Virus record (IMG/VR): IMGVR_UViG_3300042867_001289
Coordinates: 1-64,000 of that record
DNA: 64,000 bases
Direction: 5' to 3' (one strand)
From: a virus
Made by a program: the position numbers and the translations under genes. Each line of letters opens with the position of its first letter. The first letter of the stretch is position 1. Positions 45,853 through 61,260 of the stretch are shown here, one piece after another. The notes under the pieces were generated by a model. That model was given only the letters and a program-made list of their open reading frames with translations, did no database searches and was not told the origin of the DNA.

Positions 45853-45858
45853 AACACT

Positions 45859-45887: not shown

Positions 45888-45904
45888 ATCACGCTACAAG
45901 CAAC

Positions 45905-45920
45905 CTGAGAGAGTTCTTAG
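45905..45920. promoter_or_regulatory. Dyad operator, one mismatch
   Basis: CTGAGA-GAGT-TCTTAG between the orphan promoter and the one at 45939. Confidence 0.62.
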
Positions 45921-45938
45921 ACAACTCACGCAGTGGAG

Positions 45939-45967
45939 TTGACAGACTGCAAGGTGTATGGCATACT
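45939..45967 (+). promoter_or_regulatory. Promoter of the gene at 45997
   Basis: TTGACA, 17 bp, CATACT, leader AGTGTTTCACCAAC. Confidence 0.86.
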
Positions 45968-45996
45968 AGTGTTTCACCAACGAACAGGAGAAACAA

Positions 45997-46233
45997 ATGA
46001 TAGACATCAAAATTTGCTCAGACTGCGCAATGTGGGTAGCCAACCTCGATGACTCAGCAGTCGACAATGACGACAGAGGCAACGAGTACCGCCAACGCCG
46101 TGACGAAGGCCTAGAGTCCTTCAGCGGCTGCGTTGTGGTCAATATGGACGACGACGGCTACGGCTTCACTCATAACGGCTGCGACATATGCGGCCAGACT
46201 GGTCACCACGGCATCAGCGCCACAGTGTTCTGA
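45997..46233 (+). CDS. Small protein with two CxxC pairs
   Basis: 78 residues. IKICSDCAMWVANLDD and NGCDICGQTGHHG form a split zinc site with an acidic/basic middle (NDDRGNEYRQRRDEG). ATG after AGGAGAAAC. Similar proteins are common in actinophages, function unknown. Confidence 0.78.
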   Translation: MIDIKICSDCAMWVANLDDSAVDNDDRGNEYRQRRDEGLESFSGCVVVNMDDDGYGFTHNGCDICGQTGHHGISATVF

Positions 46234-46240
46234 GAGAACG

Positions 46241-46264
46241 GGAGAGGGGCGAAAGCCTCCCTCC
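46241..46264 (+). terminator. GNRA hairpin
   Basis: GGGAGAGGGGC-GAAA-GCCTCCCTCCC with one bulge. Confidence 0.68.
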
Positions 46265-46403
46265 CACTTTCTCGCGCCCACGGGACCCCCGCCACCCCCG
46301 ACAACCGGCACGCCCCGCACACAACAAAAGTCAAGTCCACTCAACAAAAGTCAAGCAACGGGGCCAGCAAGCTGGGGAAGGCCGTAGCCCTCCCCTTGCT
46401 CAC

Positions 46404-46691
46404 TCACCAGCCTCTCACGACTATCGAACCGTCACCGACTTCGACGACCGTTGTGTTGTGTCCTAGTTCTTCTAGGCTGTCGATCTCGTGGCCGGTGTCT
46501 TCAACGTACTCCTCAAAAGAGTCGTAGACGGCATAATCGCAGCGAAAACCAATGGGATCTAGTTCGATCCCTGGCTCATCAGCGAAGGTGTCTTCTAGGT
46601 AGTTGAAGAAGGCCACCGCTGCGTTGTAGGGCCAGTCAGCGAATTGCCGCATGGCTTGAGCGAAGTCTGATTCTGAAACTGTCTGATACAT
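46404..46691 (-). CDS. Acidic ESDFAQ-family protein, copy 1
   Basis: 95 residues from ATG 46691: MYQTVSESDFAQAMRQFADW, GIELDPIGFRCDYAVYDSF, then TTVVEVGDGSIVVRGW. Paralogous to the genes at 47171 and 48875. Distantly similar to a widespread small family in phages and plasmids with a FF/LFxYLE, ELDxIxxxCxY and DGSxIVQxF layout (from memory). Strongly acidic, compatible with DNA mimicry. Confidence 0.82.
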   Translation of the reverse strand: MYQTVSESDFAQAMRQFADWPYNAAVAFFNYLEDTFADEPGIELDPIGFRCDYAVYDSFEEYVEDTGHEIDSLEELGHNTTVVEVGDGSIVVRGW

Positions 46692-46721
46692 GTTGACTCT
46701 TTCTGTTAGGTGATAGGTACA

Positions 46722-46750
46722 ACTATATAGGCTAGGTTGCTTGCCGTCAA
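46722..46750 (-). promoter_or_regulatory. Promoter of the gene at 46404
   Basis: TTGACG, 17 bp, TATAGT, leader TGTACCTATCACC. Confidence 0.82.
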
Positions 46751-46768
46751 ATTGACTATAAGAGTTTC

Positions 46769-46784
46769 CTGAGAGCCGACTCAG
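46769..46784. promoter_or_regulatory. Dyad operator, one mismatch
   Basis: CTGAGA-GCCG-ACTCAG between divergent promoters. Confidence 0.65.
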
Positions 46785-46802
46785 CCTCACTCTAGCTACC
46801 GC

Positions 46803-46831
46803 TTGACAAGGTGCAACCTACATGGCATAAT
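46803..46831 (+). promoter_or_regulatory. Promoter of the gene at 46859
   Basis: TTGACA, 17 bp, CATAAT, leader AGAGTTTCACCAAC. Confidence 0.85.
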
Positions 46832-46858
46832 AGAGTTTCACCAACAAGGGAGCCACCA

Positions 46859-46978
46859 ATGAATGCAAATTTGATCAACATCGACTGGGTAAACCAGTTC
46901 AGCGCAGTTCAACAGTTCGGAGCAGGACTAATCATAGCGTCCACAATCCTCTCAATCGACTGGCTAAGAAAGCGGTAA
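46859..46978 (+). CDS. 39-residue membrane peptide
   Basis: MNANLINIDWVNQFSAVQQF followed by a hydrophobic GAGLIIASTILSIDW and LRKR end. One amphipathic helix plus a short membrane helix. Second such peptide in the zone (see 40784). Confidence 0.65.
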   Translation: MNANLINIDWVNQFSAVQQFGAGLIIASTILSIDWLRKR

Positions 46979-47170
46979 CCGGAAGGGGGCGCAAGCCCTC
47001 TGTTCCCGCACGCCCCGCCACCCCAAACCCCTGGTCTCAGCAACGGGGCTCACCCACATCTTCCAGATAGCCACCTCACACATTTCAGGTAGCTACGTCC
47101 CGCCCGGATTGTTTGAACCTGGGCTATCGGGGCTGACGAAGCGGGAGAGGCCGAAGCCCCTCCCAGTCGC

Positions 47171-47479
47171 TCACCATTCTTGGACGACGATTGAACCGTC
47201 TCCAACCTCTAGAACTAGGGTGTGTTCTGCTAGTTCTTCGATGTTGGCGACGTTGTCGTGGCCGTAGTCGCTCTTGTAAGCGTCGAAACTAGCGTGGACA
47301 CTGTAGGCACACCGGAAGGCGATGGGGTCTAGTTCGACCCCTGTGTCACCTTGACCGTAGCCAACTTCCCCGGCTACCTCTTCGATGTAGTCGAAGAGTA
47401 CAACCGAGGCGCTATAGGGCCAGTCTGCGAATTCTCGCATGACTTGGGCAAAGTCTGATTCTGTTACGTTCTGGTACAT
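47171..47479 (-). CDS. Acidic ESDFAQ-family protein, copy 2
   Basis: 102 residues from ATG 47479: MYQNVTESDFAQVMREFADW, GVELDPIAFRCAYSVHASF, TLVLEVGDGSIVVQEW. Close paralogue of 46404 gene with a seven-residue insertion (EVGYGQGD) before GVELDP. Confidence 0.83.
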   Translation of the reverse strand: MYQNVTESDFAQVMREFADWPYSASVVLFDYIEEVAGEVGYGQGDTGVELDPIAFRCAYSVHASFDAYKSDYGHDNVANIEELAEHTLVLEVGDGSIVVQEW

Positions 47480-47509
47480 GTTGGCTCTTTCTGTTAGGTG
47501 ATAAGTGCA

Positions 47510-47538
47510 ACTATACTTGACAGGTGCCACCCTGTCAA
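47510..47538 (-). promoter_or_regulatory. Promoter of the gene at 47171
   Basis: TTGACA, 17 bp, TATAGT, leader TGCACTTATCACC. Confidence 0.84.
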
Positions 47539-47613
47539 ATTTAGGTGCATGAAACCTGAAGCCTTTCTCAGTTTGTTCTCTGTTCGTGACCTCCGAAACA
47601 GAGAACAGATTAG

Positions 47614-47629
47614 CTAAGAGCGTTCTCAG
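47614..47629. promoter_or_regulatory. Dyad operator, one mismatch
   Basis: CTAAGA-GCGT-TCTCAG inside a longer AGCT...AGCT dyad, upstream of the 47647 promoter. Confidence 0.6.
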
Positions 47630-47646
47630 CTAGCCGACACGAAGAC

Positions 47647-47675
47647 TTGACGCCTTGCACCCTATAAGCTACAAT
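47647..47675 (+). promoter_or_regulatory. Promoter of the gene at 47703
   Basis: TTGACG, 17 bp, TACAAT, leader GATGTTTCACC. Confidence 0.84.
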
Positions 47676-47702
47676 GATGTTTCACCTAACGAAAGGCAAA
47701 CA

Positions 47703-47918
47703 ATGAACCTAGACAAAGAAATATGGGAAGGGTGGACAGTCGCCGACTACGTCGGAGAACTTGAACCACTATTTGACATGATCATGAGCAACGGATCATG
47801 GCAGAAACCCTTCACCTCAAAGGCGCAAGTCAAAGAATGGTGCATGGACAACCAGCCCGGATACAAAAAGAACATCCCAGACGTCGTCAACTACCTCTGG
47901 GGGAAAACCTGCAACTAG
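47703..47918 (+). CDS. Small hypothetical protein
   Basis: 71 residues: MNLDKEIWEGWTVADYVGEL, then FTSKAQVKEWCMDNQPGYKK and VVNYLWGK. Helical, Trp-rich. No family recognised. Confidence 0.74.
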   Translation: MNLDKEIWEGWTVADYVGELEPLFDMIMSNGSWQKPFTSKAQVKEWCMDNQPGYKKNIPDVVNYLWGKTCN

Positions 47919-47923
47919 CAGGC

Positions 47924-47941
47924 GGGGGCCGCAAGGCCCCC
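47924..47941 (+). terminator. GNRA hairpin
   Basis: GGGGGCC-GCAA-GGCCCCC. Confidence 0.75.
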
Positions 47942-48149
47942 ACCTTCTTACGCCCACGGGACTCACACCCCAAGCGACAAACACGACAGCCCCGCCGAAA
48001 CATTCGGACAGGGCTTACTGCGGGACTCATGGTGAAATGAGGGAGCAGGTGGGGAGGCTCACCACAACCGTCCCCACCGCTTCACCTCGTTAGCAGGCTA
48101 TCACCTCGAAGAGGTCTTGTGTGACTTCTCCTGGTAGCCCCGCTAAGGC

Positions 48150-48422
48150 TTAGATGTTATTCTCTTCCTCGCAAAGGGTTACTAAAATGGCATCTTCGTC
48201 TGCCTTTTCGTAGTATCCCATAATGTCTATGCCACCTGAGTCGATGAATCCTGTTTCCTCGATCCATGCAGGTGCTTCATATCTAAGACTTTCCCAGCGA
48301 TAACCGGTGCTGCGGGCTGCCTCTTCGATCCAAAGGACCATCTGGGAAACAGCATCTTCTGGGTTGGCTGCATCAAACTTACATGACACGCTTACTGTGT
48401 ATTCTTCAAGTTCTTCGTTCAT
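48150..48422 (-). CDS. Small acidic protein
   Basis: 90 residues: MNEELEEYTVSVSCKFDAAN, SQMVLWIEEAARSTGYRWES, ending CEEENNI. Beta-alpha start then acidic tail. No family recognised. Confidence 0.74.
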   Translation of the reverse strand: MNEELEEYTVSVSCKFDAANPEDAVSQMVLWIEEAARSTGYRWESLRYEAPAWIEETGFIDSGGIDIMGYYEKADEDAILVTLCEEENNI

Positions 48423-48455
48423 CGTGTGGCTCCTTGTGTTGGTTGGTGTGTAATC

Positions 48456-48484
48456 ATTGTAGCAGGCACCTGACAGCTTGTCAA
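48456..48484 (-). promoter_or_regulatory. Promoter of the gene at 48150
   Basis: TTGACA, 17 bp, TACAAT, leader GATTACACACCAACC. Confidence 0.84.
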
Positions 48485-48499
48485 GTACCTGCTACGGAA

Positions 48500-48706
48500 T
48501 TACTTCCTTCTCTCAGCAAGCTCGTCACGAACGGCTGCCCAATTTTCCTGAGCTTCACGAACGGCTGCACGCTCAGCATCGACGATGTCCTGAGCGTTCC
48601 TGATACGAACGTAGGACGCTTCGATACGACGCTCTAAAACGCCTTCAGTGTATTCCAGCTCATCGGTTGTAGAATCTGCAATTCTACTCTCAAAGAATGT
48701 ACTCAT
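48500..48706 (-). CDS. Small coiled-coil protein
   Basis: 68 residues: TTDELEYTEGVLERRIEASY, VDAERAAVREAQENW, AAVRDELAERRK. Continuous helix, probably a coiled-coil dimer. Its 3' end abuts the 48456 promoter. Confidence 0.74.
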   Translation of the reverse strand: MSTFFESRIADSTTDELEYTEGVLERRIEASYVRIRNAQDIVDAERAAVREAQENWAAVRDELAERRK

Positions 48707-48737
48707 TGTTTCTTCTCTCTGCTAGGTGGTAGGTGTA

Positions 48738-48766
48738 ACTATACACGGCACCCGCCTACCAGTCAA
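48738..48766 (-). promoter_or_regulatory. Promoter of the gene at 48500
   Basis: TTGACT, 17 bp, TATAGT, leader TACACCTACCACC. Confidence 0.82.
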
Positions 48767-48783
48767 ATCGACGTACTCGCATC

Positions 48784-48799
48784 CTGAGAAATCGCTCAG
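48784..48799. promoter_or_regulatory. Dyad operator, one mismatch
   Basis: CTGAGA-AATC-GCTCAG between divergent promoters. Confidence 0.64.
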
Positions 48800-48816
48800 A
48801 TTCTCAAGCAGTGGAG

Positions 48817-48845
48817 TTGACAGCTTGCACATTGCATGGCATACT
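48817..48845 (+). promoter_or_regulatory. Promoter of the gene at 48875
   Basis: TTGACA, 17 bp, CATACT, leader AGTGTTTCACCTAG. Confidence 0.85.
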
Positions 48846-48874
48846 AGTGTTTCACCTAGCAGAGAGAAGAAACA

Positions 48875-49165
48875 ATGTACCAACTAGTTGGAGAATCCGA
48901 CTTCGCACAATCCATGAGAACCTACGCAGGCTGGTCATACTCAGCCTCATGCGCGTTCTTCTGGTTCATGGAAGATAACGACAGCACAATCGACGGCTTC
49001 GGGATCGAACTTGATCCCATCGGCCTACGATGCGAGTTCAGCGTCTACGCAGACTTTGACGCTTACGCAGAGTGCTATCCATCTATGGCCACGCTGGACG
49101 ACCTGAGGGAGAGCACCCTAGTCATCGAAGCAGATGACGGCTCTCTGGTCGTGCAAGACATCTAA
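48875..49165 (+). CDS. Acidic ESDFAQ-family protein, copy 3
   Basis: 96 residues: MYQLVGESDFAQSMRTYAGW, CAFFWFMEDNDSTID, GIELDPIGLRCEFSVYADF, TLVIEADDGSLVVQDI. Third paralogue, on the opposite strand from the other two. Confidence 0.84.
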   Translation: MYQLVGESDFAQSMRTYAGWSYSASCAFFWFMEDNDSTIDGFGIELDPIGLRCEFSVYADFDAYAECYPSMATLDDLRESTLVIEADDGSLVVQDI

Positions 49166-49171
49166 GCGATT

Positions 49172-49200
49172 AGGGGACAGGCTCCGGCTTGTCCCCTTTT
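49172..49200 (+). terminator. Rho-independent terminator
   Basis: AGGGGACAGGC / GCTTGTCCCCT stem followed by TTTT, directly behind 48875 gene. Confidence 0.86.
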
Positions 49201-49213
49201 CTGCTGTAAAGAC

Positions 49214-49242
49214 TTGACAAGCAGTGTACAACCATGTACAAT
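49214..49242 (+). promoter_or_regulatory. Promoter of the gene at 49275
   Basis: TTGACA, 17 bp, TACAAT, leader AAGAACCATCACC. Confidence 0.86.
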
Positions 49243-49274
49243 AAGAACCATCACCTAGCAGAAAGAAGCAAACA

Positions 49275-49553
49275 ATGGCAATCACCATTAGCAGTAACGG
49301 ATACAGTGTCGGCGACCAAGTCGGCGACTCCCTAGCCTTCCTAGAACAATTCTGGCCAGCACTAGCAAAGCCAATCCTACTCAACCTGCCAGCATACGAC
49401 CCCGAACTACCGGGCTACGATGACGAAGCACTTGACTGGATCATCGCAGACATCGAAGCGACCGACAAGGTTCGCTGGATCGAAGGCGAACCATGGGGAG
49501 TAATCCCAGCCGGGAACCTCGAATACCGACTCTGGAACTGGGAAGAGGAGTGA
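49275..49553 (+). CDS. Small acidic protein
   Basis: 92 residues: MAITISSNGYSVGDQVGDSL, then YDPELPGYDDEALDWIIADI, VRWIEGEPWGVIPAG, YRLWNWEEE. Acidic and aromatic. No family recognised. Confidence 0.76.
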   Translation: MAITISSNGYSVGDQVGDSLAFLEQFWPALAKPILLNLPAYDPELPGYDDEALDWIIADIEATDKVRWIEGEPWGVIPAGNLEYRLWNWEEE

Positions 49554-49691
49554 GGTGAGGGGCTCCGGCCCTTCCCCCAGTCCCGCTACCCGTTTTCCTG
49601 AACAACCAGGGCGGGGCTAAGCACGCTTTTGCACGCTTTTTGTGGGTACATATGCAGAACCGTGCCCAAATAGGCACGGTTCTGCTACCGA

Positions 49692-49904
49692 TTAGCTGTC
49701 GGCGATAGGTGCCGGTGTAGTGCTAATTGTCTGGTACTTGGATGGGGCGACGCGAACGTCGTTAGCTACGGATAGGACATCCCAGCCAAGTTGCTCGTCT
49801 AGCGTCTCAGCAGCGATCTTGATGGCTACAGCATCGTCGTCGCAGGTTGCCCAAGTCTCAAGGATGAAGTCATCCCCGTAGAAGGTTACTGTCTTGTTTT
49901 CCAT
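49692..49904 (-). CDS. Small hypothetical protein
   Basis: 70 residues: MENKTVTFYGDDFILETWAT, DAVAIKIAAETLDEQLGW, ending Thr/Pro/Ala-rich. Beta-alpha fold. No family recognised. Confidence 0.73.
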   Translation of the reverse strand: MENKTVTFYGDDFILETWATCDDDAVAIKIAAETLDEQLGWDVLSVANDVRVAPSKYQTISTTPAPIADS

Positions 49905-49935
49905 GTTGGCTCTTTCCTGTTAGGTGGTAGTTGTA

Positions 49936-49964
49936 ACTATACTAGCTAGGCAACCTGCTGTCAA
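49936..49964 (-). promoter_or_regulatory. Promoter of the gene at 49692
   Basis: TTGACA, 17 bp, TATAGT, leader TACAACTACCACC. Confidence 0.83.
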
Positions 49965-49981
49965 CCTTTACTACAGACAAG

Positions 49982-49997
49982 CTGTGAGCGTTCTCAG
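49982..49997. promoter_or_regulatory. Dyad operator, one mismatch
   Basis: CTGTGA-GCGT-TCTCAG between divergent promoters. Confidence 0.6.
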
Positions 49998-50014
49998 CAT
50001 TCATGACGCAAGAC

Positions 50015-50043
50015 TTGACACTGTGGCCTGCAGGGTATAAGGT
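50015..50043 (+). promoter_or_regulatory. Promoter of the gene at 50073
   Basis: TTGACA, 17 bp, TAAGGT, leader AGTGTTTCACCAACC. Confidence 0.85.
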
Positions 50044-50072
50044 AGTGTTTCACCAACCAATAAGGAGCCACG

Positions 50073-50258
50073 ATGGCAAAGCAGAAGAAAACCAAACAAT
50101 CCACACGAACAGCCGAGATCGTTCTCGCAATCCGCACCCAAGCACATGAGCAGTACGTCGACGCACTTCGCGACGGTCGCCGCCAACGTGCCGCAACCTA
50201 CCCAGACCGCCGCAAGGTGGCAAACAAGAAGGCTTGTCGCAGGTCAGCATACAGCTGA
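50073..50258 (+). CDS. Small very basic protein
   Basis: 61 residues: MAKQKKTKQSTRTAEIVLAI, DALRDGRRQRAATYPDRRK, KKACRRSAYS. Strong positive charge suggests nucleic-acid binding, like the shorter KERR peptides. Confidence 0.74.
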   Translation: MAKQKKTKQSTRTAEIVLAIRTQAHEQYVDALRDGRRQRAATYPDRRKVANKKACRRSAYS

Positions 50259-50426
50259 CCTAGCGGCTAAGCCGCTTGCACCAGTCCCGCCTGGGCCACC
50301 AGGGATCTAGGCTGCCGGGGCTAAAAGCTTTTTGCTTCTCTGACCATCGGGGCTAAGGAGCAATTTTTGGTCCCTGGCTATCGGGGCTAAAGGCGCAGGA
50401 GGGGCCGAAGCCCCCCCCACAACCTG

Positions 50427-50756
50427 TTAGCCATATACCACCTCAGTGAAGCAGGCCACCTGAACAATCAGGTCTGCAAGGTCTGCGTCGATGTCGCCAG
50501 CCTCGTTCTCACGAACAGCAACAGCGATCTTATTGACGACCACGGGGTGGATGCCGCTAGTGTCTCCACCGATAATCTGCTCAATCGCTTCCTGCACGTC
50601 CGTTGGCGTGATTGGGTAGCGTTGGCCATCTTCCATGTCGTGGAAAGTGGCGTGAGTGTTCTCATCGGCGTGCGAGTAATCGTCCACTTCCGCCCAGTAG
50701 TTACTGCCACCTTCGGCGGCTGTGACGATGATGTCGGATAGGAATTGTGTGTCCAT
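50427..50756 (-). CDS. Small acidic phage protein
   Basis: 109 residues from ATG 50756: MDTQFLSDIIVTAAEGGSNY, WAEVDDYSHADENTHATF, ITPTDVQEAIEQIIGGDTSG. A family of similar small proteins with IIVTAxEGGxxYWA is common in actinophages (from memory); function unknown. Acidic (D/E-rich helices near the end). Confidence 0.8.
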   Translation of the reverse strand: MDTQFLSDIIVTAAEGGSNYWAEVDDYSHADENTHATFHDMEDGQRYPITPTDVQEAIEQIIGGDTSGIHPVVVNKIAVAVRENEAGDIDADLADLIVQVACFTEVVYG

Positions 50757-50789
50757 TGCTTGGCTCCTTGTGTTGGTTGGTATGTAGTC

Positions 50790-50818
50790 ATTGTAGGGTA
50801 TAGAACGTATCCTGTCAA
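50790..50818 (-). promoter_or_regulatory. Promoter of the gene at 50427
   Basis: TTGACA, 17 bp, TACAAT, leader GACTACATACCAACC. Confidence 0.85.
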
Positions 50819-50835
50819 GCCTTGTCACAGGAAGC

Positions 50836-50851
50836 CTGATAACGCTCTCAG
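50836..50851. promoter_or_regulatory. Dyad operator, one mismatch
   Basis: CTGATA-ACGC-TCTCAG between divergent promoters; the last recognisable copy to the right. Confidence 0.6.
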
Positions 50852-50869
50852 AATGCCTGACACATATAC

Positions 50870-50898
50870 TTGACAAGATGCTTTAGGTAAAGTACTAT
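50870..50898 (+). promoter_or_regulatory. Promoter of the gene at 50927
   Basis: TTGACA, 17 bp, TACTAT, leader AGTACACATCAACGAAC: first plus-strand member of the GTACACAT leader class. Confidence 0.85.
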
Positions 50899-50926
50899 GA
50901 GTACACATCAACGAACAAGGAGCCAC

Positions 50927-51253
50927 ATGAGATCCCTACAAGACCTACTAAAATTGTTACGAGGCCTACCAGAGGTCGCAAACCTGCAAGATGCATTCAC
51001 GTTGCTAGACCGTTCTATCGTAACGATAACGGAATACGAACAGCTTGAAAGCGAATGTAGACGCAGAGCCAGAGAACTCAAGTTCTGTCTTGACTCCCTC
51101 GGAATCAAATACGAATCCGCCTGGGGAGAACATCACTCTTGGTCAGTCTACCTAGCCACCAACGACTGCACCGTGAAAGGTGCACCCCTAACAGGACCAG
51201 TCATCGCAGACTGCCGAGCATCCCAGCTAATGACAAGCTTCAGTCGAATCTAG
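50927..51253 (+). CDS. Hypothetical protein
   Basis: 108 residues from ATG 50927 after AAGGAGCC. Helical first half (LLKLLRGLPEVANLQDAFTL, ECRRRARELKFCLDSLG), beta second half. No family recognised. Confidence 0.76.
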   Translation: MRSLQDLLKLLRGLPEVANLQDAFTLLDRSIVTITEYEQLESECRRRARELKFCLDSLGIKYESAWGEHHSWSVYLATNDCTVKGAPLTGPVIADCRASQLMTSFSRI

Positions 51254-51397
51254 CGAGGGTCCGTCCGAAAGGGCGGGCTCTTCACCAGCCCCGGACGCCC
51301 AATGCTGTAGCGGGACTATCGTATGCCCTGGTCGCACGATGAGGCTGGCAGGCCCCGCTTCGGGCGGGGAGGCTTGGGGGCCGAAGCCCCCGTTGCC

Positions 51398-51610
51398 TTA
51401 CCAGCCGACACCTTGTCGCCCTGCCGCTATGCGATCCTCGTAGATCTCGTGGATGCTCATGATCCAGTCAAACGCTTCTGCGATGTCACGAGCGTCTTTG
51501 CAGTGTTCCCAGACTTGTTCGTCTTCCCAGCACTCGTCGATGACTGAGCAGCTTCCGCTGCCGATGATCTGGTTTCCTCGGATGAATTTGATTAGCTCTT
51601 GCTTGTCCAT
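51398..51610 (-). CDS. Small acidic protein
   Basis: 70 residues: MDKQELIKFIRGNQIIGSGS, ECWEDEQVWEHCKDARD, FDWIMSIHEIYEDRIAAG. Helical; last minus-strand gene of the paired zone. No family recognised. Confidence 0.73.
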   Translation of the reverse strand: MDKQELIKFIRGNQIIGSGSCSVIDECWEDEQVWEHCKDARDIAEAFDWIMSIHEIYEDRIAAGRQGVGW

Positions 51611-51780: not shown

Positions 51781-52143
51781 ATGAGAATCAACGACACATG
51801 GCGAGACGTAAACTCGGGAACGGTAATCGACCGCATTGCCGAACTGGGAGCGATCAGTCTTGCCGACGCAGATGAGAACGACTCAATCGAACTGGCAGAA
51901 CTACAGAATCTCGATCAACAAGGACGCGAGATTGTGGGCTGGGCCGAAGGCTACGTCATGCTAATCAAGGACGGCTACATGGAAGACCACGCTCAAGAGC
52001 GAGCAGAAGAAGAGGGCAAAATTAGCTTCAACGAGTGGCCAGCAACGGCCATTGACTGGCATCAAGCAGCAGAAGAACTCAAGTTCTCCTACGGCTACAT
52101 CCCAGTCGACTTTTTCAACAGCACCTACTGGGTCGTCAAGTAA
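51781..52143 (+). CDS. Hypothetical acidic protein
   Basis: 120 residues: VIDRIAELGAISLADADEND, GREIVGWAEGYVMLIKDGYM, ATAIDWHQAAEELKFSYGYI. Acidic, alpha/beta. No family recognised. Confidence 0.78.
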   Translation: MRINDTWRDVNSGTVIDRIAELGAISLADADENDSIELAELQNLDQQGREIVGWAEGYVMLIKDGYMEDHAQERAEEEGKISFNEWPATAIDWHQAAEELKFSYGYIPVDFFNSTYWVVK

Positions 52144-52153
52144 GAAACCTCTC

Positions 52154-52186
52154 AGCGCCCCCTTGACAAACCGTCATGGGGGCGCT
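52154..52186. terminator. Terminator hairpin enclosing the next promoter's -35
   Basis: AGCGCCCCC and GGGGGCGCT arms form a perfect 9-bp stem; the loop contains TTGACA of the following promoter and the 3' arm ends at its -10. Confidence 0.78.
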
Positions 52187-52191
52187 ACAAT
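52163..52191 (+). promoter_or_regulatory. Promoter of the gene at 52224
   Basis: TTGACA, 17 bp, TACAAT, leader GTACACATACCACC; spacer is the hairpin arm. Confidence 0.88.
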
Positions 52192-52223
52192 GTACACATA
52201 CCACCTAACAGAAGGAGCCAAAC

Positions 52224-52736
52224 ATGCCAAACTGGTGTGAGAACACATTACAAATCAAAGGACCAATCACAGACCTAGAAGACATGGTCAACAAACTTGA
52301 CCAAGTCGAAGCCAACGCACTACTAGAGGTCTTCGCCCCAATCGGCGACTGGGACTACGACAAAGCCACCAAATCCTGGGGCACCAAATGGGACGTAGAA
52401 TACAACGTCTCTGACGCAATGGACGCAGAAGACGGCCAAGCCATCCTCGTCATGGGCTTCGCCTCCGCATGGGGGCCACCCGTCGAAGGAATCCAAACGT
52501 GGTCAAAGTTGTACCCAGATACGATGTTCCGCATCGCATACTCAGAATCAGGAATGTGCTTCTGGGGAGTTGAAATCATCCAAGATGGTGAAATCATCTC
52601 AAGCAACACTGGTGACATCCCAGACTTCCTCCCATTTGAGAGGCAGGGCGGCCCCACCGACGACGACTACCAGAAAGCATGGGACCTACAAGAAGCATGG
52701 GTAGATACAACCCTCCAACAAGGGGCGTTCACATGA
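52224..52736 (+). CDS. YubB/api92-like (DUF1281-type) protein
   Basis: 170 residues. MPNWCENTLQIKGPITDLED is the signature start of the YubB ferredoxin-like family; DAILVMGFASAWGPPVEGIQ-type middle (FASAWGPPVEGI) and the ALxxxFAPIG loop agree. Common on plasmids and phages, function unknown. Coupled by ATGA overlap to the next gene. A relative with the same fold may be at 55412. Confidence 0.85.
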   Translation: MPNWCENTLQIKGPITDLEDMVNKLDQVEANALLEVFAPIGDWDYDKATKSWGTKWDVEYNVSDAMDAEDGQAILVMGFASAWGPPVEGIQTWSKLYPDTMFRIAYSESGMCFWGVEIIQDGEIISSNTGDIPDFLPFERQGGPTDDDYQKAWDLQEAWVDTTLQQGAFT

Positions 52737-52891
52737 GCGGACGCCAATGGCTTCTAGCCGAAAACTTCGCGCTAGAAGCCAAAATCCAGAAGGTAGATCC
52801 CGTACTACTCATCCAAGCAATAGCTGACCTAAACGGACTCCTGTTAGGAGTAGCTAAACCCAAGCAAAGCAAAGAACAAATTACTCCTTGA
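52733..52891 (+). CDS. Small helical protein
   Basis: 52 residues: SGRQWLLAENFALEAKIQKV, LLIQAIADLNGLLLGVAKP. Amphipathic helices; overlaps the YubB-like stop. No family recognised. Confidence 0.68.
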   Translation: MSGRQWLLAENFALEAKIQKVDPVLLIQAIADLNGLLLGVAKPKQSKEQITP

Positions 52892-52904
52892 GAGAGGAAG
52901 CGAG

Positions 52905-53250
52905 TTTCAAGCCTGAGACCTATGCCCACCACCACCAAAAAGGTGGAGAAGGGGCATAGGTCAATCACTCCCATCGGAGTCGCTTCGTCACGAAGCCATC
53001 GAAATACGGTGTCGGGTATTATCCGATCACATTACCGGCATATGTTTGCGGGGCTTGGCGCTAATATATTTATGCGCACGAAAGCATTCGTTCGGCTCGG
53101 GCATCCTTTATCCGACTGCCCGCAAACGCGAGATTTGCAGACGTCCCGCTTAATGGGAACGTCTGCGGCATGCCCCTCTAACGGGCGACTGTACCGACGG
53201 CTAACCGGCCCCCCAGGTTTAAGACTCGGGGCTGTCTGTGTTTGCTTCAC
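52905..53250. ncRNA. Candidate large structured RNA
   Basis: A 520-bp gene-free stretch (52892-53411) holds many nested hairpins: GACCTATGCCC/GGGCATAGGTC around 52918-52960; ACTCC/GGAGT; GCTTCG-TCA-CGAAGC; a long-range pair GTTTGCGGG/CCCGCAAAC enclosing further stems; GCAGACGT/ACGTCTGC with CCC/GGG inside (about 53137-53166); and GCCCC/GGGGC pairs to about 53235. No protein with a normal start covers it. Strand is undecided; neighbours read rightwards. Alternatives are a replication origin or a packaging site. Confidence 0.55.
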
Positions 53251-53345
53251 GTTTTGTGTAGCGGCAGGGACTGTAGCACCGTGTTTTGTCGCGTGTTGGA
53301 TACTTTGATTAATATGTTTTTCCTCAGTTTGCTCAGACGGTCAAT

Positions 53346-53374
53346 TTGACGTATTGCCTTAACTGGTGTAGAGT
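53346..53374 (+). promoter_or_regulatory. Promoter of the gene at 53412
   Basis: TTGACG, 17 bp, TAGAGT, leader GATACCACTACC. Confidence 0.8.
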
Positions 53375-53411
53375 GATACCACTACCTACTACAGCAATGA
53401 AGGAGCCAAAC

Positions 53412-53912
53412 ATGACTTACATCGATCAAGCGTTTGCAAAAATGATTGAAGCCGGACTTGAAGAAGTGGAAAGAACCACCGAGAAAGTCTCAGTGCCGGA
53501 CGGCATCTGGGCACCGAACTCCCGATGGGAATACGGTGACGACGAGGGACCAGAATGGCCTTTCTCGAAGTTTGAGGAGATCTACGTCGTCACAGCCTCT
53601 GGCTACAGGTATGAGATCACTCCAGTGATCCTGCCGGACTACTGGCGCATCGCGATCCTCGTCCTGTCGCCCGACGTAGGTGATGTACTTAACCTAGGCC
53701 TTCCAGCAGGTAACGACATGGATCTGGCCGTTGAGATTAAGGATGACGAGGTTGAGTTTGCCATGGATCTGGCGGTGGCCGTAGCTGTCGAAGAAATCTC
53801 GACTCAGCTTCATAAGGCATTGGAGACGGACGTTGTTCGTCAGGCGAATGCTTTGGTTGCCAAGTTTCGGGAGTCGGCCAATCAACATTTTGATGCAAGC
53901 TGGCGGAAGTAG
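53412..53912 (+). CDS. Hypothetical protein
   Basis: 166 residues from ATG 53412 after AAGGAGCC. IDQAFAKMIEAGLEEVERTT, beta-rich centre (EEIYVVTASGYRYEITPVIL), C-terminal helices (EEISTQLHKALETDVVRQ). No family recognised. Confidence 0.78.
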   Translation: MTYIDQAFAKMIEAGLEEVERTTEKVSVPDGIWAPNSRWEYGDDEGPEWPFSKFEEIYVVTASGYRYEITPVILPDYWRIAILVLSPDVGDVLNLGLPAGNDMDLAVEIKDDEVEFAMDLAVAVAVEEISTQLHKALETDVVRQANALVAKFRESANQHFDASWRK

Positions 53913-53925
53913 TCGAATAAATCCC

Positions 53926-53954
53926 TTGACAGCCTGATCTAAACAAGCTACAAT
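53926..53954 (+). promoter_or_regulatory. Promoter of the gene at 53986
   Basis: TTGACA, 17 bp, TACAAT, leader AAGAACCTAACTACC. Confidence 0.86.
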
Positions 53955-53985
53955 AAGAACCTAACTACCACACGAAAGAGCCAAA

Positions 53986-54513
53986 ATGCACACACCACAA
54001 GGTACAAGATCAATCTCCGTATGGGGAGCAAGAGGAGGCATGGGCTGCACCACGACAGCACTCCTACTAGCCAAAACAGGGCTAACCGCCATCGTCTACG
54101 ACCAGATACACAACGGTGGGTTCGACATCCCCACCAAAGAAAGCAAATGGTCAGAAACCCCAGGGCCATGGGAACTCGAAATCAGTGACCGTGGACCAAT
54201 CTCCGAAGAAAGCCGATGGGACCTTGCAGACCTAAACTACATCGTCCTACGCGGCCCATCCTTCCTCGGACTTGCAAGCATCGTCGAACTAGCCGAGTAC
54301 TGGATACCATCAGCACACACCATCAGTGTCATCGTCCTAGAAGACGAACATTCAATTCTGACTGTCGAAGAAGTATCAGCAGTGCTTCACAACGTCAAAG
54401 TCACCTCAATGCCACTAACCCCAGCTATCGCAAGGCTTAGCGACAGAGGCATGATCTGCGACATCCCCACGATGGCAGACGAACCACAACTAGTCGAAAT
54501 GCTAATCAAGTAA
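53986..54513 (+). CDS. ParA/MinD-like P-loop protein with altered Walker A
   Basis: 175 residues. SISVWGARGGMGCTTTALLL resembles the deviant Walker A of ParA/MinD ATPases (KGGxGKT), but the position of the catalytic lysine is cysteine, and the signature lysine before GG is arginine. YIVLRGPSFLGLASI corresponds to a Walker B-like strand. Shorter than ParA (usually over 250). It may bind nucleotide without hydrolysis. Relation to the ParB-like protein at 25308 is speculative. Confidence 0.72.
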   Translation: MHTPQGTRSISVWGARGGMGCTTTALLLAKTGLTAIVYDQIHNGGFDIPTKESKWSETPGPWELEISDRGPISEESRWDLADLNYIVLRGPSFLGLASIVELAEYWIPSAHTISVIVLEDEHSILTVEEVSAVLHNVKVTSMPLTPAIARLSDRGMICDIPTMADEPQLVEMLIK

Positions 54514-54516
54514 TCC

Positions 54517-54538
54517 GGCTGGGGCTTCGGCCCCAGCC
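54517..54538 (+). terminator. UUCG hairpin terminator
   Basis: GGCTGGGGC-TTCG-GCCCCAGCC, a perfect 9-bp stem three bases after the ParA-like stop. Confidence 0.88.
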
Positions 54539-54581
54539 ACACCAAATCGCCTACAATGGTGACACCCGACAAGGAGTCCCG

Positions 54582-54944
54582 ATGCCCGACATTCCCCCAA
54601 ACAGCTCTCAACTATTCGTCTCCGACTGGCTTGGTACAAACTACAAGGCATGGGAAATCACAGACGCCCTAAGAGAGCTAGCCTCAGAATTTGGTTTAGA
54701 TGCCGACGATGTTGTCGGGACTGGTATACGGGTTGTTAAACTCCAGGCTTCGAAAAGCCTTGAAACTGATGACGACAAATTTTGGTATGAAAGCAGCAAC
54801 GACACATATGCGTCCCGGGATATCTGGGCTGTTGTAGAAGGAAGTCCCGTTAACGCTGTGATTCTTTACCTTGATATAGAAGCTAATGAATTGAAGGCTA
54901 ATGCTTGGGCTGAGAGGGAAAGGTTCAGGCGACTGAACCCTTAA
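54582..54944 (+). CDS. Hypothetical protein
   Basis: 120 residues with AAGGAG upstream. DWLGTNYKAWEITDALRELA, then beta-rich (DIWAVVEGSPVNAVILYLDI) and a helical tail. A TACAAT box lies 28 bases before ATG but no good -35. No family recognised. Confidence 0.78.
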   Translation: MPDIPPNSSQLFVSDWLGTNYKAWEITDALRELASEFGLDADDVVGTGIRVVKLQASKSLETDDDKFWYESSNDTYASRDIWAVVEGSPVNAVILYLDIEANELKANAWAERERFRRLNP

Positions 54945-54956
54945 GGAGTCCCGTAT

Positions 54957-55322
54957 ATGGTTCTAGATCCGTTCACGTTTTTTTTAGTAAGCCTTGCCGT
55001 TTATCGTGTTGTTAGGTTTTGCCTGTACGACAGTTTGATAGCCCCGCTCAGGGATCGCCTGTTTGAGGGTTTGTCTTTTGATCGTGAGTATGACGACGGG
55101 ACTGTTGAGTTGTTTGGTCGTCCTGGGTTGCGGGGCTGGTTTTTTTCTTTGTTGTCTTGTTATTGGTGTTTTGGGGTTTGGGTTGCGGGGCTGTTTAGTT
55201 TGGTTTGGGTTGTGTGGGGTGGTTTGGGTTGCGGGGCTGGTGTTGTGGTTTGGTTGGCTTTGTCTGTTGTCGGGGCTTGGTTGCGTATGTTTGAGCTTTT
55301 GGTTGTGGGTTTTATTGACTGA
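54957..55322 (+). CDS. Membrane protein, DUF1360-like
   Basis: 121 residues with AAGGAG eight bases before. FFLVSLAVYRVVRFCLYD (first helix), a short arginine loop, LLSCYWCFGVWVAGLF with the WC-x-G-V-W signature of DUF1360 membrane proteins, then LGCGAGVVVWLALSVVGAWL. Likely a three-helix inner-membrane protein. T/G-rich codon use differs from its neighbours, pointing to another source. Coupled in one unit with 54582 gene. Confidence 0.8.
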   Translation: MVLDPFTFFLVSLAVYRVVRFCLYDSLIAPLRDRLFEGLSFDREYDDGTVELFGRPGLRGWFFSLLSCYWCFGVWVAGLFSLVWVVWGGLGCGAGVVVWLALSVVGAWLRMFELLVVGFID

Positions 55323-55351
55323 GAGTTTTGTCAGGTTTCTGGGCAGACGAT

Positions 55352-55380
55352 TTGACGTATCCTTGCTTGCAGTGTACAGT
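55352..55380 (+). promoter_or_regulatory. Promoter of the gene at 55412
   Basis: TTGACG, 17 bp, TACAGT, leader GTACACATCAACC. Confidence 0.85.
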
Positions 55381-55411
55381 GGGTACACATCAACCAACAA
55401 GGAGCCATACA

Positions 55412-55891
55412 ATGTCATACATTTACAACACACTTACACTCTCTGGTAGCAACGACACAATCACAAAGTTCGTCCTTGCTATCAACGACAACAAGAACAC
55501 ACTGCGCAACACATGGTCTGTTCTTGGAACACACCTACCAGAGTGGCATCACCCTGATGAGGCTAACGACCCATTCTATGTGGAAGACGGTCACGCCTAT
55601 ATCAACACTTGCACCACGTTTATGGCCCCTACGGGCGCTCTACAGAAGGTGTCGGTCAACTTCCCTAACTTGACCTTCTCTAATTACTTTACGGAAGAGT
55701 CAGATGCCTTTGCTGGTTACGCTGTAATCAAGGACGGTGTGGTCTTGGATGTCTACGATGAGGATCAGCCTGATTTTGAGTGGGACGATAATCCTGATTC
55801 CGATAATGAGGATTTTTATGACCAGATCAGCGAATGGCAACGTGGCATCGAGGATCGCTGTTACAACAGTGCCGAGAACGTAAAGTCCTAA
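55412..55891 (+). CDS. Hypothetical protein, perhaps YubB-like
   Basis: 159 residues from ATG 55412. MSYIYNTLTLSGSNDTITKF resembles the first strand and helix of the YubB-like protein at 52224 (NTLxxxG), with an acidic end (DDNPDSDNEDFYDQISEW). Relationship is tentative. Confidence 0.76.
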   Translation: MSYIYNTLTLSGSNDTITKFVLAINDNKNTLRNTWSVLGTHLPEWHHPDEANDPFYVEDGHAYINTCTTFMAPTGALQKVSVNFPNLTFSNYFTEESDAFAGYAVIKDGVVLDVYDEDQPDFEWDDNPDSDNEDFYDQISEWQRGIEDRCYNSAENVKS

Positions 55892-55904
55892 TAAGAACCT
55901 TCAC

Positions 55905-55937
55905 AGCACCCCTTTGACAGACCGTCAGGGGGGTGCT
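55905..55937. terminator. Terminator hairpin enclosing the next promoter's -35
   Basis: AGCACCCC / GGGGTGCT arms with TTGACA in the loop. Confidence 0.76.
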
Positions 55938-55942
55938 ACAGT
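55914..55942 (+). promoter_or_regulatory. Promoter of the genes at 55974 and 56183
   Basis: TTGACA, 17 bp, TACAGT, leader GTACACATACCAAC. Confidence 0.88.
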
Positions 55943-55973
55943 GTACACATACCAACTACTAAGGAGCTAAACA

Positions 55974-56186
55974 ATGCCTACAACCTACATGACACTAGTA
56001 CTATCCGACGACACCGAATTTTGTAAGCCTTTCATTGGAAGAGCACGCCCTGACGAGGTAATCGTGGTCGGTGGCATCGATCAGCAAGTCAACGTCAACA
56101 TTCATGCCACAAAGGATCAGTGGGCGGCATTAGCAGTCTATTGCCTACAGTGTGTAGAAGCACTAGTGCTGGATGAAGCAAAATGA
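55974..56186 (+). CDS. Small hypothetical protein
   Basis: 70 residues: MPTTYMTLVLSDDTEFCKPF, VVGGIDQQVNVNIHATKDQW. Beta-rich. Overlaps the next gene by ATGA. No family recognised. Confidence 0.74.
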   Translation: MPTTYMTLVLSDDTEFCKPFIGRARPDEVIVVGGIDQQVNVNIHATKDQWAALAVYCLQCVEALVLDEAK

Positions 56187-56596
56187 ACACAGACATCTAC
56201 GGAAACCAAATCACTACACACTCGCTAAACATCGACTGGAACTTGCTAGCTAAGCAAAAGAAGCTAGTTCTAGACTTTCTAAATAGTGAGAGTCCAACAC
56301 AATTTGCCGACGTATGGAACAACAGCGACGGCCAGGATCTGATGGATGGACTCTTAAACGTCCTTGACAGCTTGCAAGATCAAGCCGCAGAAGAGCTTGG
56401 CGAAGAAGCCGTATTTGGGCCATGGTGGAATTACCGAACGCCTACCCATAAAATTGTCTGGTCAGAAGGACATGGCTTTGTCGAAGATGAACAATTTTTT
56501 ACAAACATTATGGATGCGAAGAATTACAAGGCCGAACACCCATTGGGCAAGTTTGCGTCTGTGGTTCCCATACCTGACGGAAGCGGCTTAATCTGA
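56183..56596 (+). CDS. Hypothetical acidic protein
   Basis: 137 residues: TTHSLNIDWNLLAKQKKLVL, DLMDGLLNVLDSLQDQAAEE, WNYRTPTHKIVWSEGHGFV. Helical N-terminus, aromatic beta C-terminus. The stop lies inside a hairpin (56581-56620). Confidence 0.75.
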   Translation: MNTDIYGNQITTHSLNIDWNLLAKQKKLVLDFLNSESPTQFADVWNNSDGQDLMDGLLNVLDSLQDQAAEELGEEAVFGPWWNYRTPTHKIVWSEGHGFVEDEQFFTNIMDAKNYKAEHPLGKFASVVPIPDGSGLI

Positions 56597-56620
56597 GAGG
56601 ATCCTCAGGTTCAGCCGCTT
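56581..56620 (+). terminator. Hairpin spanning the stop codon
   Basis: AAGCGGCT / AGCCGCTT arms with inner CTGAG/CTCAG; the TGA stop of 56183 gene lies within it. Confidence 0.7.
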
Positions 56621-56625
56621 GCGAT

Positions 56626-56654
56626 TTGCGCCAACATGCATTGCCATGTACGAT
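56626..56654 (+). promoter_or_regulatory. Promoter of the gene at 56684
   Basis: TTGCGC, 17 bp, TACGAT, leader GTACACATACCAACC. Confidence 0.78.
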
Positions 56655-56683
56655 GTACACATACCAACCAACAAGGAGCCACA

Positions 56684-57556
56684 ATGCTAAAGCCACAACA
56701 ACTAGAACAGCACCTATCCCAACTAACAGAACTAGCAGAATCTGACCTAATGAGCGCTAAAGAGGCAAACAGCTTCTACGCACAAGTGAGGGTCCTATTC
56801 GGTTTCAAGCCACTAGCAGGGTTTTTTCTTTCAACAGAGAAAGATATCGCCAAGCTAGACGTGGGAACGGGCCGCCACCTAATCGGCCTATCTCTCCCAC
56901 CGGCCACATCCTCTGGTCTTGCCAACACTTGCGCATTCGAAGACGACTGTCTGACAAAGTGCGTAGGCGTAGGCGGTTCGAATCGCTTCAGTAGCGCTTC
57001 TAACGGCAAGGCGGCCAGACTGCAATTGTTTATCGACAATCCCCAGGCCGCGCTAGCGTTGCTAGTAGGCGGGATCGATAAGGCAGTAGCTAACCATGGT
57101 GCCGAGAATGTAGCCGTTCGATTGAATATCTATTCGGATCTTAGGTGGGAACGCATTCTGCCAAATTGGTTCTGGACACGCTTTGCAAACGTAGTCTTCT
57201 ACGATTACACAAAGCATCCTCTGGCCAGTCGACCAGTAGCAACTATTCCAGCTAATTACAAGCTGACATACTCTGTTAGCAAGCGGTCGACGGTATGGCA
57301 AGTGTCTAACCAGCGTAACGCAGGACGGCCAGTAGCGGTCGTTATCGATACCCGTGGCGGTAAGGTCAAGGGGACCGATAAGTACCGTGATTTGCCGCTT
57401 GAGGCAGACGGTGTGACCATCGTCGACGGTGACGCTAGTGATCGTCGCTATGAAGATCCTGCTGGCGCTTTAGTTCTTCTACGTCGGAAGAATGGTCTGC
57501 CCGCATCTGATCCTCTGGTTCGGAATGCGGAGCAATTGGAAGCAATGCTTTCCTAA
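56684..57556 (+). CDS. Gp88-like phage protein
   Basis: 290 residues from ATG 56684. The order SGLANTCAFEDDCLTKCVG, AVRLNIYSDLRWERILPNWF, VVFYDYTKHPLASRP and NYKLTYSVSKRS matches the phage gene-product-88 family (from memory); three cysteines near 90 could bind metal. Function unknown. Largest gene of the accessory zone. Confidence 0.83.
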   Translation: MLKPQQLEQHLSQLTELAESDLMSAKEANSFYAQVRVLFGFKPLAGFFLSTEKDIAKLDVGTGRHLIGLSLPPATSSGLANTCAFEDDCLTKCVGVGGSNRFSSASNGKAARLQLFIDNPQAALALLVGGIDKAVANHGAENVAVRLNIYSDLRWERILPNWFWTRFANVVFYDYTKHPLASRPVATIPANYKLTYSVSKRSTVWQVSNQRNAGRPVAVVIDTRGGKVKGTDKYRDLPLEADGVTIVDGDASDRRYEDPAGALVLLRRKNGLPASDPLVRNAEQLEAMLS

Positions 57557-57571
57557 GAACCTTCACAGGTG

Positions 57572-57608
57572 GCGGGTGGAATCACTTGACGAGAGTGGTT
57601 TCACCCGC
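57572..57608. terminator. Terminator hairpin enclosing the next promoter's -35
   Basis: GCGGGTG-GAA and TTTCACCCGC arms with one mismatch; TTGACG lies in the loop. Confidence 0.72.
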
Positions 57609-57614
57609 TATCAT
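57586..57614 (+). promoter_or_regulatory. Promoter of the gene at 57645
   Basis: TTGACG, 17 bp, TATCAT, leader GTACACATACCAAC. Confidence 0.85.
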
Positions 57615-57644
57615 GTACACATACCAACTACTAAGGAGCTAGCA

Positions 57645-58133
57645 ATGAGACCACAAAAAACACTAAGAGAACTAGTCGGAATCATAATGGTTCCATCTCA
57701 CGAGCTTGAAGAGCTCATCTTGGACGCTTACGCCGACGAAATTGAGAAGGCCGTACAAACAGCAATCTCTGACCAGATCAGCGAAGAAGTTCGAGATGCG
57801 GGGCTCTACGAGATCACAGATCAAAACATTCTGTGTAGTGACCATAGCGAGCCTTTCACTTGGCACGCTGTTGTTAGTTACGATGAGCCACTTGACCCCG
57901 AGTCTGAGTCTGTGAACGACTTTTACATGCCGACCCAGGAGGGTGATATGGCCGTGGAAGCTGCTGTGCGCAAGGTTCTGGGATCTAAGTCGATTGAAGG
58001 CGCAATGTATTATGTCCAGCTAGAAGTAGCTGAACAGGGGTTTGATCAGTGCAATGCCGTTTATGGCATAGATGTTGCTATGAGGATTCGTGCCGTCTTG
58101 AATGGGACTCAGCGCCTGTACGTCGCAATGTAA
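57645..58133 (+). CDS. Hypothetical acidic protein
   Basis: 162 residues from ATG 57645. Helical (ELEELILDAYADEIEKAVQT), acidic (DEPLDPESESVNDFYMP) and an alpha/beta end (YGIDVAMRIRAVLNGTQRLY). No family recognised. Confidence 0.77.
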   Translation: MRPQKTLRELVGIIMVPSHELEELILDAYADEIEKAVQTAISDQISEEVRDAGLYEITDQNILCSDHSEPFTWHAVVSYDEPLDPESESVNDFYMPTQEGDMAVEAAVRKVLGSKSIEGAMYYVQLEVAEQGFDQCNAVYGIDVAMRIRAVLNGTQRLYVAM

Positions 58134-58136
58134 AGC

Positions 58137-58167
58137 TGAGTGGCCTCACAGCTAGTGGGGCCACTCA
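58137..58167 (+). terminator. GC hairpin
   Basis: TGAGTGGCC / GGCCACTCA arms, adjoining the next -35. Confidence 0.78.
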
Positions 58168-58168
58168 C

Positions 58169-58197
58169 TTGACCATCTATTATCTATCTGTTACCAT
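58169..58197 (+). promoter_or_regulatory. Promoter of the gene at 58228
   Basis: TTGACC, 17 bp, TACCAT, leader GTACACATGACAAAC. Confidence 0.83.
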
Positions 58198-58227
58198 GTA
58201 CACATGACAAACAACGAGGAGCCAACA

Positions 58228-58488
58228 ATGATTGACGAAGAGACAGACCTACCAATCGACACAACCGAACCAAGGTTCCCAGAAGTAGAACTTACGGTTG
58301 ACATCTTTGGAACAGAAGGAAACGCCTTCTTTCTTATCAGCAAGGTGCGTAGGGAGCTGGCATATCACGATGCGAGCGAAGAGGAAGTCGAAGAGTTTGA
58401 TAAGGAAGCCAAGTCTGGCGATTACCAGAATGTGCTTGACACAATTGGTAGGTGGATTACCTTTACTTACTTTCCAGAGCCTTTCTAA
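58228..58488 (+). CDS. Small acidic protein
   Basis: 86 residues from ATG 58228 (an upstream in-frame ATG is part of the leader motif). VELTVDIFGTEGNAFFLISK, then HDASEEEVEEFDKEAKSGDY, RWITFTYF. The layout strand-helix-acidic helix is common in small phage proteins; no named family. Confidence 0.78.
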   Translation: MIDEETDLPIDTTEPRFPEVELTVDIFGTEGNAFFLISKVRRELAYHDASEEEVEEFDKEAKSGDYQNVLDTIGRWITFTYFPEPF

Positions 58489-58498
58489 GAACCTTCTC

Positions 58499-58532
58499 AG
58501 TGTCCCCCTTGACAAGCAGTCGGGGGGACACT
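58499..58532. terminator. Terminator hairpin enclosing the next promoter's -35
   Basis: AGTGTCCCCC / GGGGGACACT perfect 10-bp arms; TTGACA starts at the loop. Confidence 0.8.
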
Positions 58533-58537
58533 ACAAT
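58509..58537 (+). promoter_or_regulatory. Promoter of the gene at 58570
   Basis: TTGACA, 17 bp, TACAAT, leader GTACACATACCAACC. Confidence 0.88.
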
Positions 58538-59817: not shown

Positions 59818-59905
59818 GAATTCTGTCAGGTTGCATCACATCCTGTGCTCTGCTTCAGCCCCTGACAGCTAGGGTCAGATCGGCTCCCCGCTGGTCTGGC
59901 CCGAC

Positions 59906-60843: not shown

Positions 60844-61260
60844 CTACGCTACGGTGGTGCGGTCAGCATCAGCAACGCGGGGGGAAGTCGATGGCTCCTC
60901 TTCCCTCCGCCTTGCTATTTCCAGAATCTGATGAACCCGTTGGCGTGATAGACCATAGGTCTCCCCAATGACTTGCAAGGTCACACCACTTGACCGCATC
61001 GCCACAATCTCAGTGTTACGGCCTGACTTAGACTTAGGACCAGGCTGAAGAACCCAAGCCCAATCTGCGCGGCCTTCAAGAGCAATGATCATGTCTTGCT
61101 GTAGCTCGCCTAGGCGGTAGTATGTGCGAATCGAGGATACCCACCGCCCTAGTGGTACAGTGCCCTCCATGTGCTTCACAGGGACTCTAGCGGTGCCTTC
61201 TCGGTCGATATAGGTATCAAGTGCTTCTAGGTACTTTGTTGCTTTGTTTAGTGATTTCAT
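60844..61260 (-). CDS. Helicase-associated domain plus sigma-region-4-like HTH regulator
   Basis: 138 residues. TARVPVKHMEGTVPLGRWVS, then SIRTYYRLGELQQDMIIALE resembles a helicase-associated (HA) repeat; GVTLQVIGETYGLSRQRVHQ is a sigma-70 region-4-like helix-turn-helix. Minus-strand gene with a promoter that places ATG six bases after the -10 box and has a perfect palindrome in its spacer, so autoregulation is likely. Best candidate for a regulator of the small-gene promoters (inference). Confidence 0.82.
   Translation of the reverse strand: MKSLNKATKYLEALDTYIDREGTARVPVKHMEGTVPLGRWVSSIRTYYRLGELQQDMIIALEGRADWAWVLQPGPKSKSGRNTEIVAMRSSGVTLQVIGETYGLSRQRVHQILEIARRREEEPSTSPRVADADRTTVA

Follow-up and report, generated by a model that had tools for sequence, protein, structure and literature searches.

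Hairpins without a U-tract at gene ends that span the −35 hexamer of the next SigA-type promoter in the early region of a virus

Terminators without a U-tract are known from the early region of the actinophage phiC31, where hairpins that mostly lack this tract stand between tandem genes (Ingham, Hunter and Smith 1995, as that work is reported in PMC8355165 and PMC5335608). In the phiC31 sequence (L174), a hairpin at 11155-11193 has a 3' arm that extends into CGGGTTGCCGAC..CCTTAC, which is the repeated sequence of the early promoters. This hairpin, which we take to act as a terminator, overlaps no more of the promoter sequence than its 5' edge. In mycobacteria, 'I-shaped' terminators having no U-tract have been reported within 50 bp of stop codons, and Rho has been reported as the main terminator (PMC12288462). 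It is noted that the status of the U-less hairpins is contested (PMC5335608). As the work of Czyz et al. 2014 is cited there, the mycobacterial RNA polymerase requires the U-tract in vitro, and because of this reported requirement the U-less hairpins may only pause the polymerase or protect 3' ends. Besides, the start-associated and extended start-associated sequences (SAS/ESAS), which are repeated and have inverted repeats, stand before non-structural genes in cluster K mycobacteriophages (PMC3203893), and 17-bp palindromes occur in many copies across the genomes of cluster O mycobacteriophages (PMC4351075).

Here, we consider the first 64 kb (hereafter the window) of a record of 128,048 bp from an uncultured phage. 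An actinobacterial host is almost certain, because the terminase is nearest to those of Gordonia phages, with 43% identity, and because the phage carries four genes of the WhiB family (G000:C1 27049, 30322, 66100, 111638), a family that among the control genomes matched only Corynebacterium. Among GenBank phages, none matches the early region at the DNA level. In this part of the genome, most genes come with an individual promoter and an individual gene-end hairpin. From 36000 to 51500 of the window small genes lie on the two strands in alternation, most of them individually promoted, and at 33420-33495 on the minus strand a tRNA-Met gene is present, with its end abutting the −35 of a promoter. 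The promoters are of the SigA type (TTGACA/TACAAT), with hexamers like TTGACA and TATAAT that are separated by 17 bp and followed by a start codon with a ribosome-binding site, as in SigA/sigma-70 promoters.

At five of these promoters, with the −35 starting at 52163, 55914, 57586 and 58509 on the plus strand and at 48484 on the minus strand, an inverted repeat of 13-18 bp spans the −35 hexamer. The original prediction had placed inverted repeats at the four plus-strand sites, where they are present (p=0.0005-0.0025), and had not included the fifth. The hairpin AGCGCCCCC-T-TGAC-(AAACC)-GTCA-T-GGGGGCGCT occupies 52154..52186 (+), with the −35 at 52163-52168 and the −10 at 52186-52191 (p=0.0005); AGCACCCCTTTGAC-(AGACC)-GTCAGGGGGGTGCT occupies 55905..55937 (+), with the −35 at 55914-55919 and the −10 at 55937-55942 (p=0.0005); a hairpin of 18 bp with the loop GACGA occupies 57570..57610 (+), with the −35 at 57586-57591 and the −10 at 57609-57614 (p=0.0005); AGTGTCCCCCT-(T bulge)-GAC-(AAGCA)-GTCGGGGGGACACT occupies 58499..58532 (+), with the −35 at 58509-58514 and the −10 at 58532-58537 (p=0.0025); and TAGCAGGTACTTGACAAGCTGTCAGGTGCCTGCTA occupies 48460..48494 (−), with the −35 at 48484-48479 and the −10 at 48461-48456 (p=0.0015). 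These p values were obtained with the −35 kept fixed and with the upstream 25 nt and the spacer of each of 37 promoters shuffled, and besides the five sites none of the 37 promoters gives p<0.05. Folding of the stretch from the stop codon to the −10 gives −24 to −29 kcal/mol for the five hairpins. At each site the terminator-like hairpin and the next promoter share the same DNA within about 35 bp, as had been proposed. It had also been proposed that TTGACA lies in the loop. The outer arms do enclose the −35, but at four of the five sites the −35 is inside the stem, the loop being merely 3-5 nt and TTGAC pairing with bases of the spacer (TGAC at 52163, GAC at 58509); only at 57586 is GACG of the −35 in the loop. 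The 3' arm terminates on T or TA, the first base or bases of the −10 hexamer.

The hairpins are related to the gene that ends rather than to the promoter that follows. All of the five are at tandem junctions, where the stop codon of the upstream gene ends 15-29 bp before the −35, in agreement with the claim that the repeat closes that gene, and the hairpin starts 6-14 nt past the stop codon; among the 37 promoters, none outside the tandem set has a straddling hairpin. Among the junctions from 35 to 61 kb, with 17 of each kind counted, a compact strong hairpin is present at 15 convergent, 10 tandem and 2 divergent ones (Fisher p=8e-6 and 0.005), where the p values are somewhat optimistic and are to be taken as a guide, since the cut-off of compactness was set after a count with looser loop limits did not discriminate, long gaps yielding chance folds, and where the junction classes rest on our own simple gene calls, corrected by hand. 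The fold z-score of the promoter region is on average −2.6 at tandem junctions and −0.5 elsewhere (p=0.0007). With these counts and z-scores, it is therefore concluded that the hairpins go with gene ends rather than with promoters. Strong hairpins are absent at the tandem promoters 53926, 55352 and 60222, with the gap at 53926 being as short as those at the straddling sites.

Of the strong intergenic hairpins in the 128-kb record, nearly all lie in this region, and almost none has a U-tract. For comparison with the straddling ones, a U-less hairpin at 58137..58167 (+) stops just short of the −35 at 58169 and overlaps the palindrome to be described below; another at 59872..59902 (+) ends 3 bp before the −35 at 59906; the U-less gene-end hairpin GGCTGGGGCTTCGGCCCCAGCC is at 54517..54538 (+), after the gene 53986-54513; and the hairpin of a tandem gene end at 49172..49197 (+), upstream of the −35 at 49214, is followed by a short T-rich tail. 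The five straddling hairpins resemble I-shaped terminators in that a stable GC-rich hairpin with a stem of 13-18 bp stands shortly 3' of the stop codon and is followed by sequence with no U-tract (ACAATGTACACA, ACAGTGTACACA, TCATGTACACAT, CAATGATTACAC). The U-tract that stands a few bases from the stem in canonical intrinsic terminators is found at none of the five (0/5), and terminators with a U-tract are not enriched in the region as a whole (14 versus 12.9 in shuffled sequences).

A strand-symmetric search, in which the sense fold was compared with the antisense one, bears on whether the structure is that of RNA or of DNA. The sense RNA folds better at all five sites, at three of them by 5-10 kcal/mol (for example, −26.2 versus −15.8 at 57586 and −23.8 versus −15.2 at 48484), with the gap being small, only 0.4-1.4 kcal/mol, at 52163 and 58509; and over the tandem junctions the sense hairpin is the more stable in 10 of 13 (p=0.049). 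The difference is caused by G-U pairs of the sense strand, the complement being much weaker at 55914, 57586 and 48484. This favours a role as RNA in the upstream transcript over a cruciform, because a DNA-level structure has no need for greater stability on the sense strand. Note also that the pairing appears to be kept while the arms change. With 52163, 55914 and 48484 aligned in register, 4 of the 14 pairs are changed on both sides with the pairing retained, and 97.6% of the cells are paired as compared with 38-45% when the sequences are slid, which bears out the claim of retained pairing and is suggestive only, since just three sequences are aligned. The arms do differ between sites, as had been claimed, and those of 48484 and 57586 are unrelated to the others, but 52163, 55914 and 58509 show a likeness of about 79-83% across some 85 bp; they may be duplicates, and since these three resemble one another the five sites do not represent five independent events.

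Based on these data, our preferred reading, to which we give a probability of about 0.7, is that the straddling hairpins are gene-end terminators of the upstream transcript, of the U-less I-shaped type, and have merged with the −35 and the spacer of the next SigA-type promoter. In a longer gap the hairpin lies upstream of the −35, and with the stop codon 15-29 bp from the −35 it can form around it, TTGAC then contributing to the 5' arm, the 3' arm occupying the 17-bp spacer and the stem stopping where the −10 starts. The RNA of the upstream gene would fold into the hairpin while the polymerase crosses the next −10, and the polymerase would halt or pause there, leaving the next gene to its own promoter. 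The transcript of the new promoter would exclude the hairpin, and therefore the hairpin would act only on RNA coming from upstream, where it would block or slow read-through and so preserve the control of the next gene by its own promoter. From the sequence we infer that transcription would terminate at the hairpins and that the function of the promoter would be unharmed by the overlap.

That the hairpins protect the 3' end of the upstream mRNA or make the polymerase pause, with termination occurring by Rho or further downstream, is rather unlikely but is the kind of role expected if the U-tract is needed; the missing U-tract, the contested status of such hairpins (PMC5335608) and the part ascribed to Rho in mycobacteria (PMC12288462) would all agree with it, while the position right before the next tandem promoter or in convergent gaps suits termination at least equally well. 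It is improbable that a polymerase stopped at the hairpin stays on the DNA and restarts at the overlapping promoter, thus reading separately promoted genes in succession. We know of no description of a terminator-restart element with zero distance between the two. The E. coli polymerase has been reported to terminate and then to restart at the promoter nearest to it (PMC11347151).

A very improbable reading is that the inverted repeats act as DNA, either as a cruciform or as a dyad bound by a regulator, hiding or exposing the −35 and thus controlling the next promoter. The repeats are near-perfect, with short loops centred near the −35, and four of the five have almost the same centre relative to it, as such a role would have it; but the arms vary between sites, so that they are not the site of one protein, the G-U pairs leave the complement much weaker at the three sites given above, and the hairpins are absent at divergent promoters, where control of the promoter would be equally useful. 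The control of the next gene by supercoiling or cruciform extrusion, as in the original prediction, is thus unsupported, with all five hairpins folding better as sense RNA. No more credence is given to a by-product, in which one promoter module was duplicated and three copies inherited its palindromic look, the pairing having arisen without selection. The likeness of 52163, 55914 and 58509 is what this would give, whereas the unrelated arms of 48484 and 57586 still pair and four pairs are double-changed across 52163, 55914 and 48484.

Upstream of about 28 promoters of the window, from 36000 to 59000, there is a 16-bp palindrome, CTGAGA-N4-TCTCAG or a variant, of which the original prediction made no mention. 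At 25 promoters its distance to the −35 is 17-18 bp, and at three (52163, 55914, 58509) it is 7-8 bp, one helical turn less. At the straddling sites of the plus strand it is GTAAGAAACCTCTCAG at 52140..52155, 7 bp from the −35 and including the upstream stop TAA (52141-52143); ATAAGAACCTTCACAG at 55891..55906, 7 bp from the −35; CTAAGAACCTTCACAG at 57553..57568, 17 bp from the −35 and including the upstream stop codon; and CTAAGAACCTTCTCAG at 58485..58500, 8 bp from the −35 and also including the stop codon. The upstream stop codon is inside the palindrome at most tandem sites, and at 52140, 56593, 57553, 58485 and 59814 it (TAA or TGA) is within the first half. Divergent promoter pairs have one palindrome in common, e.g., 39436/39489, 44817/44868, 46750/46803 and 49964/50015. 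At 56578-56623 a larger gene-end hairpin, AAGCGGCT..AGCCGCTT, has the palindrome CTGAGAGGATCCTCAG as its upper part. The 16-bp palindrome resembles the binding site of a dimeric regulator, and the set of palindromes is likely a regulon of the phage. By analogy with known activators, a centre near −61 or −51 would suit activation, with repression being equally possible. At 60844-61260 on the minus strand, a protein with a helicase-associated domain and a part like sigma-70 region 4 is encoded, a possible regulator.

The only DNA relatives of the early region that the searches gave are the same virus (IMGVR_UViG_3300042450_002567) and one relative, L015, that is about 95% identical; the latter is the only relative covering a straddling site, and 58509 is kept there letter for letter. 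Another genome, G003, is mostly 80-95% alike elsewhere and ends before the early region. By a count of the pattern, the palindrome-promoter system is not common to the relatives identified by terminase (about 71-75%), and L016 and L144-L146 were rejected as relatives, their pattern matches being due to chance or unrelated. In a survey of 177 promoters of other phages, a single straddling hairpin rich in GC came up, in an unrelated phage of 71 kb (G028, L149:8764), where GCAGGGTTGTCTTG..CAAGGCAACCTTGC (L149:8740-8790) stands around TTGACA past a stop codon and ends just before the −10; the stretch is identical in four copies of the contig, and a relative of the G028 gene with 45% identity is without the promoter. 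An AT-rich inverted repeat around TTGACA in L126, L127, L128 and L156 (near 4849-5718)/G035 varies in sequence between phages, folds weakly (−7 to −9) and was set aside, as it looks like an inverted copy of the phages' own promoter spacer. No overlapping terminator and promoter of phages was found in the literature, which, with partial coverage of the journals, is weak evidence.

We now return to the described systems. The likeness to phiC31 is that of an actinophage early region in which a U-less hairpin overlaps the next early promoter, with the extent of the overlap and the type of promoter being different: here the hairpin reaches across the −35 and takes up the spacer as far as the −10 of a SigA-type promoter. 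The mycobacterial I-shaped terminators likewise have a GC-rich stem and no U-tail just past the stop codon, but they are not described as containing the next promoter, and their termination activity is disputed (PMC12288462; PMC5335608). With SAS/ESAS there is in common, besides the repeated elements, AGGAGCC at the ribosome site (PMC3203893). By contrast, ESAS consists of two 17-bp inverted repeats with arms conserved in sequence, in which the changes do not support RNA pairing, whereas the hairpin arms here vary between sites and pair (PMC3203893). Most copies of the cluster O palindrome are away from promoters (PMC4351075), whereas the palindrome here is nearly always at a fixed distance from the −35. 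The fusion of hairpin and promoter is thus most likely a tighter form of an arrangement already known in such phages.

With the stop codon, the palindrome of the putative regulator, the gene-end hairpin, the −35, the −10, the ribosome site and the next start codon all within about 80-90 bp, these junctions represent an extreme compression of regulatory DNA. The fused element would provide a natural template in which termination and initiation share the same DNA, and it would be useful for testing U-less termination in actinobacteria as well as the restart of polymerase at an overlapping promoter. The palindrome regulon, a likely control system of the phage, is of interest by itself.
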